Assembly (NCBI RefSeq): GCF_004099695.1
Contig: NZ_SCHL01000004.1
Location: 124,001 to 188,000 of the forward strand
Origin: Methanosarcina sp. MSH10X1
GTDB lineage: Archaea; Halobacteriota; Methanosarcinia; Methanosarcinales; Methanosarcinaceae
Direction of reading: 5' to 3'
Length of the DNA: 64,000 nucleotides
Shown here: piece after piece, positions 5,749-13,049 of the stretch
Layout of the letters: every line of letters starts with the position of its first letter
Position numbering within the stretch: position 1 is the first letter of the stretch
The notes under the pieces: model-generated
Told to the model about the DNA's origin: nothing
Seen by the model: the letters and a program-made list of their open reading frames with translations, nothing else
Database searches by the model: none
Made by a program: the position numbers and the translations under genes

Positions 5749-7923
5749 TCAGCGGTGCCTTACTACGCAATTCGAAAGCCCGACTATTTCAACGATATCA
5801 CTGTTGTCCGGGGAATGAATTATCATCTGTCCTTTCTTAAGGTAAGGAATCCTGCGCTCATATTCTTTCGGGACTTTAAGAGACGTGATAGCTGCATCAT
5901 TATTGAGGTTAAGGATCAATTTCGTATTTACCTGCTTGAAAACCGTATCATCGATATCCTGAGGGTCCTGGGTGATTAAAAAGAGACCAAGTGCTTCTTT
6001 TCTACCCTGGCGGGCTGCATCTGCAAAACGGGAGATAATAAGGCGAGAGTGTTCCCCGCTCGCCTTTGAGAGATAACGGTGAGCCTCGTCCAGAGCCAGG
6101 ATAATCGGAGTTTCCTTAATAGCGTCTTTGCCTGTGGTACTCAACTTATTGTCCACGATCAGGCTCATAATTGTTAGCACTATGAGGTCGCGGATTCTCG
6201 GAGCGCTTATGTATTCGGTCGGAAAAACCGAAATCTGCCCTGGCTTGAAGATCTTATCCAGAAGCTCGGTAATTGGGGTGGCTTCCCGGTCAAAAACCTT
6301 CGAGAAGAAAGGATTCCTGACTCTCCTTACAATTCCGTCATAAGAAGACTCGTGCAGCTTCCCGCTGTCAACATAGTAGGAACGGGTACCCTCATTATCA
6401 ATATGGTTGATGAAATTCAGGTAAGTATGGGGCACGCTTGACTTGAAGAAATCCAGAAGAAGCACTTCAAGCCCTATGTACTGAAGTTCGGACATTCCAG
6501 CTGCTGCAATAAGCCAGGTGTTGTGTTCTACAAGCGAGAAGGGAATTGTAAATTCGATTTGCTCGGCTCTTGATTTGTCCCCGGGATATTTTTGCCCGTC
6601 AACTTTCGCCACGAAAGCCTTTGTAGAGGCGACCCGACCATAAGTCACGTTTTCGGATTCGAACCGGAATTTATCATCCTCACTCAGGGTTTCATTATCC
6701 TCGAAAAGCTGGGAATATTCATCCTGAGGGTCCATAATTACCAGACAGGGGTTTTTCCGCGCCTTATCAGGAGAACCCCGCAGCCTGTACCTATTATCGT
6801 CGGTCATGAACTGGCGGAGGATATTTTTTGAAAGGAAAGTTTTCCCTGTTCCTGTGCTCCCGCAGATAAGCATGTGCCTGAAAATAAGAGGATCGCCCAT
6901 AGAATAGTCGTTTCTGAGGTAATAGGCAACCGTTTCGGGCTCGGAATGGGTTTTTAAGAGCTCACCTCCCACGCTCAGGTGACCGAGAAAGATTCCTTCT
7001 TCAGGAATATTGAGCCCTATCTGGACCTCAAGCCTGTCAGTAACAGGCAGGATAGGAGTATTGGGGTGAGGAATCCTATCCGCCATGCGCCGGGTGAGTG
7101 TGCTTCCGGGTTTCAGGTAAAGGATACAGAGCGGATCAAGGCAGGCAAGGAATTTGTAATCTTCCTCTTTTACAAGGTTTCCATGGGCACTGAGCATGCG
7201 CCTCGAGTGAATCTCAGTTGCGTCGTCTACCACAAATTCCTGTCTGTACTGGAGTTTCCCTACCCTGGCAAAGAGTTTTTCTCCATTCTCGTAAGGCACA
7301 ACAACATATGTTCCAAGCCTTATCTCGTCCCGCCGCGCTGAGGTTATATAGCCTGTGATTACAGCCCCTGAAGGGGTTAATTCTAGAGGCTCTATGCCTG
7401 TAGTGACAATCCCGAAGGCTTCTGAGACCGGAGAAGCTCTCAGAGCAATATCACCGTACCCGGCAAAAGGCTCAAAGGGCAGAGCCTCCTCTACGGGATT
7501 CCCGAGAATTTCGGATTCGAGAAAGAGATCCTGAGCAGGCAGGGAAACGGGTTCAGAAAGCGTTGCAGCTTCAGAAAGAGAAGCGGATTTAAAGATAATT
7601 TCAGGAGAGCCTGAGAAAATATCGGATTCGGCTTCAGGGATAAGATCCGAGATATCTTCCGGATTATTTTCTCCGAGAGTATCGGATAAGGGAGCCTGAA
7701 ATTCTTCATCAATTTCAGGCGTTAACGCAGGGATAACCCGATCGGAAATATCTTCAGGTTCAGGGAAGTTCACAGGCTCGCCCGCATTGCTGCCCTTGAA
7801 GCTTATCCCTGCAGAATTTTCCTTTGAACCTTTCTTATCTTCCATTCCTGAATCCACAGGAGCTAGCCCCTTTTTCGGTCTGCAAGAGTCAAAAGCCATA
7901 AGGTCGGTGTTTTCATATTTCAT
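5749..7923 (-). CDS. herA: HerA-family DNA translocase ATPase
   Basis: HerA is a hexameric FtsK-like DNA translocase/helicase that works with NurA and Mre11-Rad50 in 5' end resection. The ATPase core is intact: Walker A GSTGTGKT near residue 355, IMDPQDEYSQL soon after, and the Walker B region ALDEAHRYL near 611, followed by ARQGRKEALG and QDPQDIDD. A HAS-barrel domain precedes it (about residues 185-260). Residues 1-185 are an unusual acidic, Pro/Ser/Glu-rich extension of low complexity, not expected in minimal HerA proteins. The gene overlaps nurA by 11 bases and lies downstream of it, so the two are translated together. Confidence 0.9.
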   Translation of the reverse strand: MKYENTDLMAFDSCRPKKGLAPVDSGMEDKKGSKENSAGISFKGSNAGEPVNFPEPEDISDRVIPALTPEIDEEFQAPLSDTLGENNPEDISDLIPEAESDIFSGSPEIIFKSASLSEAATLSEPVSLPAQDLFLESEILGNPVEEALPFEPFAGYGDIALRASPVSEAFGIVTTGIEPLELTPSGAVITGYITSARRDEIRLGTYVVVPYENGEKLFARVGKLQYRQEFVVDDATEIHSRRMLSAHGNLVKEEDYKFLACLDPLCILYLKPGSTLTRRMADRIPHPNTPILPVTDRLEVQIGLNIPEEGIFLGHLSVGGELLKTHSEPETVAYYLRNDYSMGDPLIFRHMLICGSTGTGKTFLSKNILRQFMTDDNRYRLRGSPDKARKNPCLVIMDPQDEYSQLFEDNETLSEDDKFRFESENVTYGRVASTKAFVAKVDGQKYPGDKSRAEQIEFTIPFSLVEHNTWLIAAAGMSELQYIGLEVLLLDFFKSSVPHTYLNFINHIDNEGTRSYYVDSGKLHESSYDGIVRRVRNPFFSKVFDREATPITELLDKIFKPGQISVFPTEYISAPRIRDLIVLTIMSLIVDNKLSTTGKDAIKETPIILALDEAHRYLSKASGEHSRLIISRFADAARQGRKEALGLFLITQDPQDIDDTVFKQVNTKLILNLNNDAAITSLKVPKEYERRIPYLKKGQMIIHSPDNSDIVEIVGLSNCVVRHR

Positions 7924-9247
7924 TCACGTTACCCCACCGAGTATCATTATAAGTGGTATCGGGATTCATGTTTTCAAAGAATTTATCAATCTCTTGCCTC
8001 TCCACTTTCCGGATTTTTGCTATATGGTCTGCCTTTGTAAGGGTTAGTGGGAAACCATGCAGAGAAAGGTCGAAGAGTACTTTTCTGGTAATTTGCATGC
8101 GGAGAAAATCGTCCTTAACAAGCCCGTAAGGGGCTTCAACCTTGAAGACTATATCTTTGGAAGGCACATAAAGCATGAAAAAACAAAGGGCATAATCTTC
8201 AGACGAAAAATTATGCCTGAGCTTCTGCTGGAGCGAGTCTGCGGCTGCAAGGGGCGAAGTCCCGTTTAGCATCTTCTCATAAAACCTATTGGGCTGCAAG
8301 AACCAGTTAGTGTAAGTAATGTAAGCATTTCTTGAACCGGTGTGCCTGCCATTCTTCCCGTTATTTTTCGAGTTTCTCCCGTTGTGCCCTAATGCACTGT
8401 CAACTTTTTCGGGGGAAAGGAGATTTTTGAAAAACTGGGAGTCAAGCATCCAGGGCAGGTCGAAAGCTTCCCTTTTCTTCCGGACGCTGTCCATAATTTG
8501 CACGTCAGTTGGATTTTTCACGAAACCTACCACAGGGATGCGTTTTTCCAGGAAATGGTCCATAATATCAATGTAATTCTGGAGAATTCTTCGGGCATCG
8601 CTGTTCTGCCGGATTCTTACGTCCTCATCGTCCAGCACCATCCAGTACATTAGCTGTTTGGGATAAATTGGCCCATCCATTATGAAAAAGCTCTCAGGCC
8701 CCATGCTGTCTTTCATGAGAAGGATATGTTCGGATTCTGCGAGATACATGGCAAAACTGTGCACAATGTCAGGAGCCTTTCGTTTCAACTCGTCAGGGGC
8801 AATTGTAACCAGTTTTGCCCTTCCGAACTCCTCATCAAAGCTTTCCCAGCCCGATGTAGCCTGCATGGCTATCCTCTGGGAAGAAGAATAAGCCGCGCAT
8901 ACAATTGTCCTGAATCTCTGAATATCAAGGTTAGTAGGCGTTGCAGCCAGCCCGCAGTGGCAGAAATCAACAAAAAGCCCGCTGTCATACGTCCTGGGAT
9001 TGGTGCTCCCGCTGTCACAGGCGTAAGTAACCGGATACGGGTCTTCACCCAGCGCCATGAGCTCAGTCCTTACAATCCCCCGAAAGAGCCTGTCTATCGC
9101 CTTAAGTATGACCCTTCCATCGAGCTTCAACTCCTCAAGCAGGGAATAGATATCCGCAGCCGTTTTTGCCTCCTGAGACTCAAACGAGCAGTCAATCTTT
9201 TTAGCAAGCTCCGAGATCTTATTCATATGCACGGGCTCAAGGGTCAT
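7913..9247 (-). CDS. nurA: NurA 5'-3' nuclease
   Basis: NurA is the nuclease partner of HerA in double-strand break processing. The N-terminal catalytic motif is present as YACDSGSTNPRTYDSG near residue 75, with further acidic positions in FIMDGPIYP near 205 and a C-terminal KADHIAKI segment typical of the family. At 444 residues it is somewhat longer than many NurA proteins; a low-complexity Asn/Gly/Lys stretch (GRNSKNNGKNGRHTG) near 295 looks like a species-specific insertion. It is the first gene of the nurA-herA pair, with an 11-base overlap. Confidence 0.9.
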   Translation of the reverse strand: MTLEPVHMNKISELAKKIDCSFESQEAKTAADIYSLLEELKLDGRVILKAIDRLFRGIVRTELMALGEDPYPVTYACDSGSTNPRTYDSGLFVDFCHCGLAATPTNLDIQRFRTIVCAAYSSSQRIAMQATSGWESFDEEFGRAKLVTIAPDELKRKAPDIVHSFAMYLAESEHILLMKDSMGPESFFIMDGPIYPKQLMYWMVLDDEDVRIRQNSDARRILQNYIDIMDHFLEKRIPVVGFVKNPTDVQIMDSVRKKREAFDLPWMLDSQFFKNLLSPEKVDSALGHNGRNSKNNGKNGRHTGSRNAYITYTNWFLQPNRFYEKMLNGTSPLAAADSLQQKLRHNFSSEDYALCFFMLYVPSKDIVFKVEAPYGLVKDDFLRMQITRKVLFDLSLHGFPLTLTKADHIAKIRKVERQEIDKFFENMNPDTTYNDTRWGNVNEI

Positions 9248-9962
9248 AAACAGGAGATACTTTGAGGAGTTTATATATTTGTTGAGTGGAAAGGAGGAAA
9301 AGTTTCTGCTTTACTGGAAAAAAGGTGATGGGAATTAGAAAATATATAACTGTTTTTAGGAATTCTCTCAAATGATAGAGAAAGTGCTGGAAAACCGAAG
9401 TCACAGATTAACTGCAATTATAGGGTGATCTTATTATTCGGTTTTCCCAGAAAGATATATTTTTCGGAGATTAGCAGTATTATTATTGTTTCTAAAAGCT
9501 TTGTAATTTCGTATCAAAATTATGATTTATCTGTGCAAAATTATGATTTATCTGTGCAAAATTATGATTTATCTGTGCAAAATTATGATTTTATCTGTGT
9601 ATCAGAGTTATGTGAATTCCGGTTGTCTCTGTACCTTTTTTTGCTGCAAAAATAGAATGCATGTTTACTAATGCATATTTTTTATGATAATCCTCTGTAT
9701 TCCACTGAATATTTCCGGCAATTTGCCGCTGGAATTGGTTCAAAGTAAGCTAATAATCCATATAAAAATAACTCTCTCTCATCGATTGTTTTCGAAATAT
9801 ATATATTCTATACAGATTAATGGACCGTTGTATGCCTTTATTAGGATACTTTTTTATTCAAAGAGAATAGTTTTGCGATTAACTGCTCAATGGAAAATAA
9901 AAGTAAGGATAGTTTTTTCTTAATGTTAATGGCATACAAAAAAAAATTATAAAAAATAAGAA
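9248..9962. repeat. AT-rich intergenic region with 21-bp minisatellite
   Basis: This gap of about 700 bases lies between divergent nurA and the lysozyme gene. At 9515-9599 there are four tandem copies of CAAAATTATGATTTATCTGTG (21 bp); the last has one extra T. The rest is very AT-rich and shows no convincing gene. It marks the left edge of a compositionally distinct segment. Confidence 0.85.
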
Positions 9963-10679
9963 GTGAAAAGATCTATGAAAGCACAAATCAAAAAGACAAT
10001 CGCTATTTTGCTATTAGTTTGTTTCTTATTGTCAGTAGCAGCTTCGGCAGTAAGTGCAGCCCCTACCAAGACTAAAACATATGGAATTGACATCAGTAAA
10101 TGGCAAAAAGGAATGGATTTAGCAAAAGCTAAAAAAGAGGGCGTTAAATTTGTGATTATTAGAGGTATGTATGGAAATGAAAAGGATACAAATTTTAACA
10201 CACATTATAAAAATGCGAAGGCAGCCGGTTTAAAGGTAGGTGCTTATCAGTACACTAGAGCAGTAAATGAAGCTCAAGCTAGAGAAGAAGCACAATTATT
10301 TATTAGTAAATGTTTAAAAGGTAGACAATTTGAGTATCCTATCTATATAGATGTAGAAGATAAGCTATTAAAAAATTTAAGTAAAGAACAAGTTGATGCA
10401 ATTATTACAGCATGGTGTGATGAAATGGAAAAAGCCGGTTACTTTGCAGGATTCTATTGTAATGGTGACTGGTATAAAAATGAAATGCATGGTGCGCAAT
10501 TAATGAAAAAATATACTTGCTGGTATGCAAGCTGGGGAATTACAACTACTAATTATCCAATGCACCAATTCTCGGGAGGAACCAAAAAAGTAGCAGGTAT
10601 GAGCTGCGATCAAGATTATTGTTATGTTGATTTCCCCAGTATTATTGTAAAAGGCGGTTTTAACGGATATAAAAAGTAA
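9963..10679 (+). CDS. Secreted GH25 lysozyme (muramidase)
   Basis: A glycoside hydrolase family 25 N-acetylmuramidase, which cuts bacterial peptidoglycan. A clean signal peptide (KK, then IAILLLVCFLLSV, ending VSAAP) is followed by one GH25 barrel: GIDISKWQKG near residue 41 gives the first catalytic Asp, and YIDVED near 127-132 gives the DxE pair; VIIRGMYG, VGAYQYTRA and ASWGI also fit the family. Six Cys in the mature part could form disulfides. No wall-binding domain. Codon use is AT-rich (TTA Leu, AGA Arg, GGT Gly), unlike neighbours such as nurA. Methanosarcina has no murein, so the target would be other cells. Probably acquired from Firmicutes-like bacteria. The start is GTG 9963 or ATG 9975. 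Confidence 0.92.
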   Translation: MKRSMKAQIKKTIAILLLVCFLLSVAASAVSAAPTKTKTYGIDISKWQKGMDLAKAKKEGVKFVIIRGMYGNEKDTNFNTHYKNAKAAGLKVGAYQYTRAVNEAQAREEAQLFISKCLKGRQFEYPIYIDVEDKLLKNLSKEQVDAIITAWCDEMEKAGYFAGFYCNGDWYKNEMHGAQLMKKYTCWYASWGITTTNYPMHQFSGGTKKVAGMSCDQDYCYVDFPSIIVKGGFNGYKK

Positions 10680-10991
10680 AACAGTAATATACAGTAAATA
10701 ATACTACTGAAACATTATGGGACGTAATATGGCAGTGTGACGATTTTTCTGAAAAACTCAACTCTTAAAAGTTATTGGGTGGAAAATTCCGTGTCGAGAC
10801 ATTAATTTTCCCTCAGTACATAAAAGTTTGATTCCATGTTTACGGTGAATTCGAGACACTGCCTCTTCTCTTGTTCAAAAGCTCATTTTTAGACAACTGG
10901 ATGTTTAAATTCTAACATAAAAAATAACAATTTTAATGTTTTGATTTTTAACCTGATACAGGATAGGAATGACTTATCTTTTATTACTGTC
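10680..10991. other. Intergenic gap, no gene seen
   Basis: About 310 AT-rich bases between the convergent lysozyme and orphan genes. Two similar short segments (GTCGAGACATTAA and TTCGAGACACTGC) recur about 60 bases apart. They may be a relic of an inserted element, but I cannot identify one. Confidence 0.4.
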
Positions 10992-11468
10992 TCAGGTATT
11001 GTTCAGTTCCTCGACTTTTGCCTGTGCTGCTTCCTCTGTTTCGAATATCTCGGTATCCGAGGGAAAACAATATAGACATACTCCATCTGTGACCTTTGCA
11101 GTTCTGTATATAAGGGTGTACACAGGTTTGTCCATATCATCTTCTTTCAGGTAGCTGATTTCATTCTCACCGAAATTTACCAGTGCATATTCCAGACCAT
11201 CTATTTCGATTGTCTCAGGAAATTCCATACCATCGAATATTTGTTTCCCGACTGAAAAATTCAGGTCCTTATACAATAATATCGGTCGAACAAAGACTTT
11301 CGGAAGCTTCGACTCCCTGTCTTCGCCTGAAAAATGTGACACATCCACTTCTTCACTTTCATAGTCAGAAAAGCTCGCGTTTCGAGATGCATACTCGTAT
11401 ACTGACTCATATACCTGTACAATGATTCCATTGATCTCGATCTGAGTTGTCATAAGTTTCAGTCCCAT
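10992..11468 (-). CDS. Hypothetical protein, orphan
   Basis: A 158-residue acidic, soluble protein that I do not recognise. It has no signal peptide or membrane helix. The sequence alternates short strands with acidic turns (for example EIDGLEYALVNFGENEISYL), which suggests a mostly beta protein. A single CLYC pair occurs near residue 133. It is alone on the minus strand between the lysozyme and the Mrr-like gene. The start is ATG 11468 or the ATG five codons later at 11453; neither has a clear ribosome binding site. Coding status is likely from the length and balanced composition in an AT-rich area, but not certain. Confidence 0.5.
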   Translation of the reverse strand: MGLKLMTTQIEINGIIVQVYESVYEYASRNASFSDYESEEVDVSHFSGEDRESKLPKVFVRPILLYKDLNFSVGKQIFDGMEFPETIEIDGLEYALVNFGENEISYLKEDDMDKPVYTLIYRTAKVTDGVCLYCFPSDTEIFETEEAAQAKVEELNNT

Positions 11469-12099: not shown

Positions 12100-12690
12100 A
12101 TGAAAACAAGTAAAAGAGGGAAGAGAAGAAAACAACGCCGCTCTGGCAATGGAATATTTAAAATTATGTCATATATTTTAGTAAAACCAGTTAAGCTGCT
12201 CATTATTTTTTCAATCTATTCACTGAAATCAATCTGGCTACTATTTAGTTTTTCAATGGGTTTACTTTACAGGCTTACAAAACAACTGTTTAAGAAAAGT
12301 CCATCAAATCCAGCCTTATCCGCATTAGCTGAGATCGACGAAATGAATGGATACAAATTTGAAGAGTTTATGAAACATGTTTATGAGCAGTTAGGATATT
12401 CAGTTTATCACACCCCAAAATCAGGTGATCAGGGTGCAGATCTTATTCTAACATCGAAAGAAAAAACAAGAATCGCTGTTCAGGTCAAACGATACTCGGG
12501 GAAGGTTTCAAACAGTGCGGTACAGGAAGTCGTAGCTGCAAAAGGTTTCTACAAATGTACCGAAGGTATAGTAGTTACAAATAGTTACTTTACCAATTCC
12601 GCCAGACAATTAGCTGAGGCGAACTTTATTGACCTGGTTGATAGAAATGGACTTGAAAAGCTGATCAATAATATTCTAGTTAAGCTCTGA
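12100..12690 (+). CDS. Membrane-anchored Mrr-like restriction endonuclease
   Basis: The C-terminal 110 residues form an Mrr-type PD-(D/E)XK endonuclease domain: NGYKFEEFMKHVYEQLGY, then GDQGADLIL with the catalytic Asp, then VQVKRYSGKV as the QxK element, then the helix GFYKCTEGIVVTNSYF. The N-terminus is very basic (about residues 1-20) and is followed by hydrophobic stretches (LIIFSIYSL, IWLLFSFSMGLLY) that look like two membrane segments, so the nuclease domain should be tethered on the cytoplasmic side. Type IV enzymes of this fold cut modified DNA; the membrane tether suggests action on incoming DNA, which is inference. No methylase is nearby. Codon use is AT-rich like the lysozyme. Confidence 0.85.
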   Translation: MKTSKRGKRRKQRRSGNGIFKIMSYILVKPVKLLIIFSIYSLKSIWLLFSFSMGLLYRLTKQLFKKSPSNPALSALAEIDEMNGYKFEEFMKHVYEQLGYSVYHTPKSGDQGADLILTSKEKTRIAVQVKRYSGKVSNSAVQEVVAAKGFYKCTEGIVVTNSYFTNSARQLAEANFIDLVDRNGLEKLINNILVKL

Positions 12691-13049
12691 ATATAAACAG
12701 CCTGTTTTTGTGTGACTTGCTAGCTGGCTCACCCGGTCATTCTTCCGGCTTAGCTGGCACTTATCAGGTCTATTTGTTATTCTCAGATCTATTATTTTCC
12801 TGGATCTATTATTTTCCTGGATCTATTATTTTCCTGGATCTATTATTTTCCTGAATCTATTATTTTCCTGAATCTATTATTTTCCTGGATCTATTATTTT
12901 CTCAGATATCCTTCTCTCAAATATTCCTCTCTCAGATTTATCTTATCCAGGGTTGTCTATTCTCTCCCTTAACCCTATGATACAGGTAGTCATTGTTTGG
13001 AAATCTGTTTTTGACTAAAAATGCCTCAACAATTCAAATCCCATAACAC
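12691..13049. repeat. Intergenic minisatellite, 17-bp unit
   Basis: A 17-base unit, TATTATTTTCCTGGATC, is repeated in tandem seven times from about 12789 to 12900, with GAATC replacing GGATC in the middle copies. Degenerate CTCAGAT-containing copies continue on the right. No gene is seen in the 360-base gap between the convergent Mrr-like and coiled-coil genes. Confidence 0.85.

Follow-up and report, generated by a model that had tools for sequence, protein, structure and literature searches.

The gene described here raises the question of how a methanogen came to carry a lysozyme and what the enzyme would act on; to our knowledge, Methanosarcina has no peptidoglycan. The reading we favor, with a probability of about 0.7, is that an endolysin gene was gained, joined to a native leader and stripped of its wall-binding domains, and that it now encodes a secreted antibacterial muramidase.

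The GH25 gene and its active site

The putative secreted GH25 muramidase gene lies at positions 9963..10679 on the plus strand of the window (the whole stretch of 64,000 nucleotides that was analyzed). The open reading frame encodes 238 amino acids from a GTG at 9963, or 234 from an ATG at 9975, and its stop codon is at 10677-10679. GH25 is the only Pfam domain in the predicted protein, and the match to Glyco_hydro_25 (PF01183, E 4.9e-31) reaches 108.9 bits, where the curated cut-off is 27, which rules out a chance open reading frame. An AlphaFold model of the protein has a pLDDT of 87.8, and a Foldseek comparison of this model with the PDB returned 22 confident matches, every one a GH25-type lysozyme or endolysin. 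The best matches were GH25 lysozymes (TM-score 0.61–0.70 by query), and the fold is a modified TIM barrel of GH25 type.

All four catalytic acids are kept in the protein and are invariant across 61 aligned relatives. These are Asp39 (codon at 10089..10091, plus strand), which sits in the motif GIDISKW; Asp126 and Glu128 of the DxE motif (10350..10358, plus strand), which sit in YIDVED; and Asp212 (10608..10610, plus strand), the fourth conserved acid. Asp126 and Glu128 align with Asp95 and Glu97 of AaMur and with D101 and E103 of 4KRU, a phage lysozyme of solved structure. In the chemistry described for GH25 enzymes, the Asp of the DxE motif is the acid, the Glu supports it, and the N-acetyl group of the substrate assists (PMC7954357). 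Near-invariant positions were retained in 24 of 25 cases, including D39, D126, E128, Y91, Y161, W183, Q198, and D212, as were 78 of the 91 positions that are invariant within the protein's own clade.

The surroundings of these acids have changed. Position 197, which is Trp in 97% of the 61 relatives, is His in the window protein (codon at 10563..10565, plus strand), and a five-residue loop just downstream, close in sequence to the invariant Q198, is missing. Thus, the first-pass annotation of an intact active site was right about D39, D126, and E128, and could have added D212, but it did not hold for Trp197 and the neighboring loop. Judged from the alignment, the substitution and the deletion together could lower or alter activity. 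The lysozyme 4KRU has Phe at this site, so Trp is not strictly needed there.

Genomic setting and distribution

The gene is in the middle of a 264,639 bp contig, and both of its flanks are native and syntenic. On the left, a NurA nuclease gene identified by Pfam (7913..9247, minus strand) is matched at the DNA level in 31 of 31 genomes of the genus, in synteny, and adjoins a HerA gene, also identified by Pfam (5749-7923). On the right, a conserved gene of 158 amino acids (10992..11468, minus strand) marks a flank that is homologous in relatives, and an Mrr nuclease gene lies beyond it (12100-12690). The stretch just past nurA holds other, unrelated genes in the eight relatives examined. Since the right flank is homologous while the intervening genes differ between relatives, we consider the gap between nurA and the 158-amino-acid gene a variable insertion spot. 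Its boundary cannot be fixed, because the relatives carry other genes at the spot and none offers a clean empty site. At the place of window positions 9300-10990, other Methanosarcina have an acyltransferase-like gene, membrane proteins, or secreted proteins.

Repeat-rich flanking sequence had earlier been taken as a sign of recent gain. The repeat exists (9515-9599, four copies of 21 bp, 98% matches), yet it is uninformative about gain, and the variable insertion spot beside nurA and herA is the better evidence. A second tandem repeat is located at 12786-12901 (6.8 copies of 17 bp, 97% matches). Additionally, the intergenic sequence upstream of the gene (9597-9763) has short matches of 73%–90% at several sites in the genus and is possibly a dispersed repeat.

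The gene is present as a single copy in its own 3.56-Mb genome and is the sole GH25 gene among 31 Methanosarcina genomes and among the 238 genomes of the class. Old vertical inheritance was rejected on this distribution (1 of 238 genomes in the class). Across 394 Halobacteriota genomes, there was one further GH25 gene, in a different family of the phylum. Its product (L050:589-2217, minus strand, genome G069) has 542 amino acids and a hydrophobic N-terminus. It differs from the window protein in its long C-terminal part and its position far off in the tree, and we read it from sequence as an independent GH25 gain.

No holin or phage genes were found near the GH25 gene, whose neighbors are those named above (NurA, HerA, the 158-amino-acid gene, and Mrr). 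We therefore rejected the idea that it belongs to a Methanosarcina prophage or virus. The gene is not part of a lysis module, although its domain descends from endolysins.

Sources of the catalytic domain and the leader

The GH25 catalytic domain (10077..10676, plus strand) derives from a phage or prophage endolysin, as indicated by sequence identity, the tree, a PHROG match, and the structure model. Homology to two endolysins, L002 from a metagenome-assembled Bacillota genome and L034 from a phage contig in IMG/VR, begins at residue 34 of the window protein at about 62% identity, and the PHROG endolysin match reaches 4e-51. The closest relatives are L061 (64% identity), L002 (62%), L034 (61%), and L101 (60%), the last also an IMG/VR phage contig. 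A tree built from 65 catalytic domains places the window protein with L002, L034, L101, L061, and L065 at a support of 99/96, although these values are rough, as the bootstrap had not quite settled. This clade is nested in a wider set of endolysins from phages and prophages of one order of Bacillota with small genomes (~0.7–1.9 Mb). The bacterial character assigned to the gene in the first-pass annotation was thus upheld by both the Pfam match and the tree, and the tree shows no old, vertically inherited Methanosarcinales clade around the domain but places it within Bacillota phage and prophage endolysins. That annotation missed that the donor was a phage lysis gene, not a bacterial secreted lysozyme. 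Overall, the sequence comparisons identify a phage or prophage endolysin of the small-genome Bacillota order as the source of the catalytic domain.

The relatives differ from the window protein at both ends. Proteins of nearly all phage and prophage relatives start at GIDIS or a few residues before it, and the closest lack a signal peptide. L002, L034, and L101 share with the window protein a catalytic domain of about 60%–62% identity, the 99/96 clade, and the catalytic acids, but they have C-terminal extensions and are found in lysis modules. For L002 and L034, the domain order is GH25-CW_7-LysM, and a Hol44-type holin adjoins the endolysin. In L034, this holin-endolysin pair is part of a siphophage tail and lysis module with a Gp37-like tail protein and a virion structural protein, and other relatives from the donor order have small membrane-protein-like open reading frames directly upstream of the endolysin. 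The window protein, in contrast, begins with an archaeal leader and lacks a binding domain, and its gene has no holin nearby. It terminates two residues past FNGY, where the linker to CW_7 and LysM starts in the relatives, and no remnant of either domain was seen downstream of the stop in the three forward frames. Since the wall-binding domain is absent, the protein's affinity for cell walls may be weak.

At the other end, residues 1-28 (ATG numbering; MKAQIKKTIAILLLVCFLLSVAASAVSA, encoded at 9975..10058, plus strand) are built like a Sec signal peptide ending in A-V-S-A, and residues 2-23 form one helix in the structure model. The earlier description of a full signal peptide is well founded, as this predicted 28-residue leader matches those of Methanosarcina. 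Searching with the leader DNA gave matches in 25 of 31 Methanosarcina genomes, mostly ~70–117 bp long and 72%–83% identical, with E values down to 2e-15. Each match that was inspected opened a secreted protein of an unrelated kind, for example MKSQIKKTITVLLAVCFLVSLTAMAVSA and MGIKKTLAILLVVCFILSVTAAAVSA. The matches stop at about residues 28–30, and endolysin homology opens at residue 34. In a control search of 146 donor-order genomes, the leader DNA matched only 25-bp stubs, in two genomes. This difference indicates that the signal sequence is Methanosarcina's own, and we rejected a bacterial signal peptide carried in with the gene on the same control. An archaeal leader, a phage catalytic domain, and the disappearance of the wall-binding domains together make the gene a hybrid. 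The first-pass annotation had overlooked the added leader and the lost domains, as well as the change at the near-invariant Trp.

Codon use is intermediate between donor and host. The GC content at third positions (GC3) is 24% for the whole gene and 23.5% for its mature part, compared with 10%–13% for donor genes and 46 ± 4% for the 46 other open reading frames of the window, and the codon log-likelihood of the mature part is also intermediate. This bears out the AT-rich codon use described earlier. The recent gain proposed with it agrees with the donor-like element of this codon use and with the lack of the gene in all other genomes sampled from the genus and the class. Intermediate codon use in an open frame fits a fairly recent gain that is already drifting toward the host, and the codon shift with the frame kept open suggests residence under selection. 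NG86 dN/dS between the window gene and L002 or L034 was 0.23–0.32, which is supportive only, as dS is near saturation and the estimate spans both branches. Long-term selection cannot be measured, because the gene occurs in one genome only.

The main alternative to a working enzyme is a transient acquisition that is losing its function, with a product that no longer cuts peptidoglycan, exported or not. We regard this as unlikely, given that the frame is fully open with third positions well shifted from the donor, and that 24 of 25 near-invariant and 78 of 91 clade-invariant positions are retained. The exact placement of the archaeal leader also argues for past selection. The change of a 97% conserved Trp with its accompanying loop deletion would be expected under loss of function, as would the presence of the gene in a single genome and in a variable insertion spot, although Phe at the changed site of 4KRU weakens the first of these points.

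The same evidence bears on whether the gene is an assembly or contamination artefact. Despite the draft state of the genome (55 contigs) and the uniqueness of the gene in the genus, we rejected this explanation as extremely improbable on the in-frame fusion to a native signal sequence, the mid-contig position between syntenic flanks, and codon use that has moved toward the host. The contamination estimate is 0.17%, and the hybrid junction makes contamination very unlikely.

Proposed function and relation to known hydrolases

In our proposed history, a Methanosarcina took up an endolysin gene from a siphophage or prophage of a Bacillota lineage with small genomes. Its catalytic domain would have been fused in frame after a Methanosarcina leader, consisting of a translation start region and a Sec signal peptide, and the phage enzyme would have dropped its wall-binding domains, CW_7 and LysM, from the C-terminus. 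The product is probably exported, and removal of the leader behind A-V-S-A would leave a free GH25 domain of ~22 kDa. Acting on bacterial peptidoglycan, this domain would hydrolyze the beta-1,4 linkage of MurNAc to GlcNAc; D126 would serve as the acid, E128 would support it, and the N-acetyl group of the substrate would assist. Because the host is without peptidoglycan, neighboring bacteria are the probable target, whether competitors are killed or wall material is freed. We infer export, enzyme activity, and an antibacterial role for the protein and, from its membership of the GH25 family, peptidoglycan as its target. With an export signal added and the catalytic acids kept, a muramidase exported and aimed at bacteria is the likeliest functional reading, and the weapon role suggested in the first-pass annotation is plausible.

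Two other substrates were weighed. The native export signal would also suit an enzyme that acts on the envelope of its own host, for example in cell separation, as Methanosarcina produces a polysaccharide coat of methanochondroitin. However, GH25 enzymes cleave MurNAc-GlcNAc bonds and methanochondroitin is built of other sugars, the catalytic acids are unchanged, and the gene is missing from the other 30 Methanosarcina genomes, which makes this role very improbable. The main functional rival is scavenging, in which wall fragments of dead bacteria would be degraded to sugars, acetate, and peptides that neighbors ferment to methanogenic substrates. No amino sugar use is known in Methanosarcina, which counts against scavenging, and we think this role improbable, although the loss of the wall-binding domain fits a freely diffusing enzyme and the same role has been proposed for the GH25 of Aciduliprofundum (PMC4241558).

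Peptidoglycan hydrolases are already known from archaea (PMC4241558, PMC12352652). The GH25 muramidase of Aciduliprofundum boonei (B5ID12) was gained from a Firmicutes lineage and is antibacterial, with killing activity (PMC4241558). It resembles the window protein as an archaeal GH25 gained from Firmicutes, but it belongs to another archaeal lineage and, judged by its description and its source in a Firmicutes-dominated clade, to a separate transfer (PMC4241558). Woldo and Danwoldo of Halogranum salarium are modular peptidoglycan hydrolases that, like the window protein as we read it, are secreted, horizontally acquired, patchy in distribution, and chimeric in history (PMC12352652). Unlike it, they need both a catalytic and a wall-binding domain, and the former is M23 or glucosaminidase rather than GH25. 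The survey that described them required a wall-binding domain and excluded single-domain enzymes by design, so the window protein falls outside it (PMC12352652), and single-domain archaeal wall hydrolases may be undercounted. In bivalves, co-opted lysozymes are reported as a case of a phage lysis gene that became a host enzyme, which matches the phage origin of the window gene but concerns eukaryotic hosts (PMC5303276). Within the part of the literature on Methanosarcina, lysozyme, and GH25 that was accessible, we found no description of the window gene.

What is new here is a GH25 gene in Methanosarcinia, its phage-endolysin source, and its clear fusion to a native leader. These features suggest that a methane-making archaeon converted a lysis enzyme of phage origin into a secreted enzyme directed against bacteria. 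Methanogens live among bacteria, and the means by which they compete are poorly known. The gene records possible steps of such a conversion, with a catalytic domain taken, the host's own export signal added, and binding domains dropped. Genetic tools exist for the genus, so the question of a weapon is directly testable.

The start of the gene bears on a further idea. The translation start region (AATAAGAAGTGAAAAGATCTATGAAA, 9955..9980, plus strand) was used in a pattern search of 31 Methanosarcina genomes that permitted up to two mismatches, and the 26-nt sequence AATAAGAAGTGAAAAGATCNATGAAA had two matches, one in the window and one in another Methanosarcina species (G015:C49), whereas the reversed pattern had none. 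At the second site, the identical 26 nt belong to the leader of a secreted PG_binding_1 protein of 136 amino acids (L039:1185-1595, minus strand). As read from sequence, this one shared leader is suggestive of repeated capture and no proof of it. That Methanosarcina has a reusable secretion leader, to which imported domains active on peptidoglycan were joined repeatedly (a phage GH25 cutter and a PG_binding_1 binder), is a tentative idea that we consider rather unlikely. If true, such a leader would give a methanogen a home-made route to new antibacterial proteins from phage parts.

As a separate observation, a PG_binding_1 protein of 307 amino acids is encoded beside a hydrogenase small subunit-like gene (L144:1399-2322, plus strand, G000:C33), and similar frames of about 290–330 amino acids are present in most genomes of the genus.
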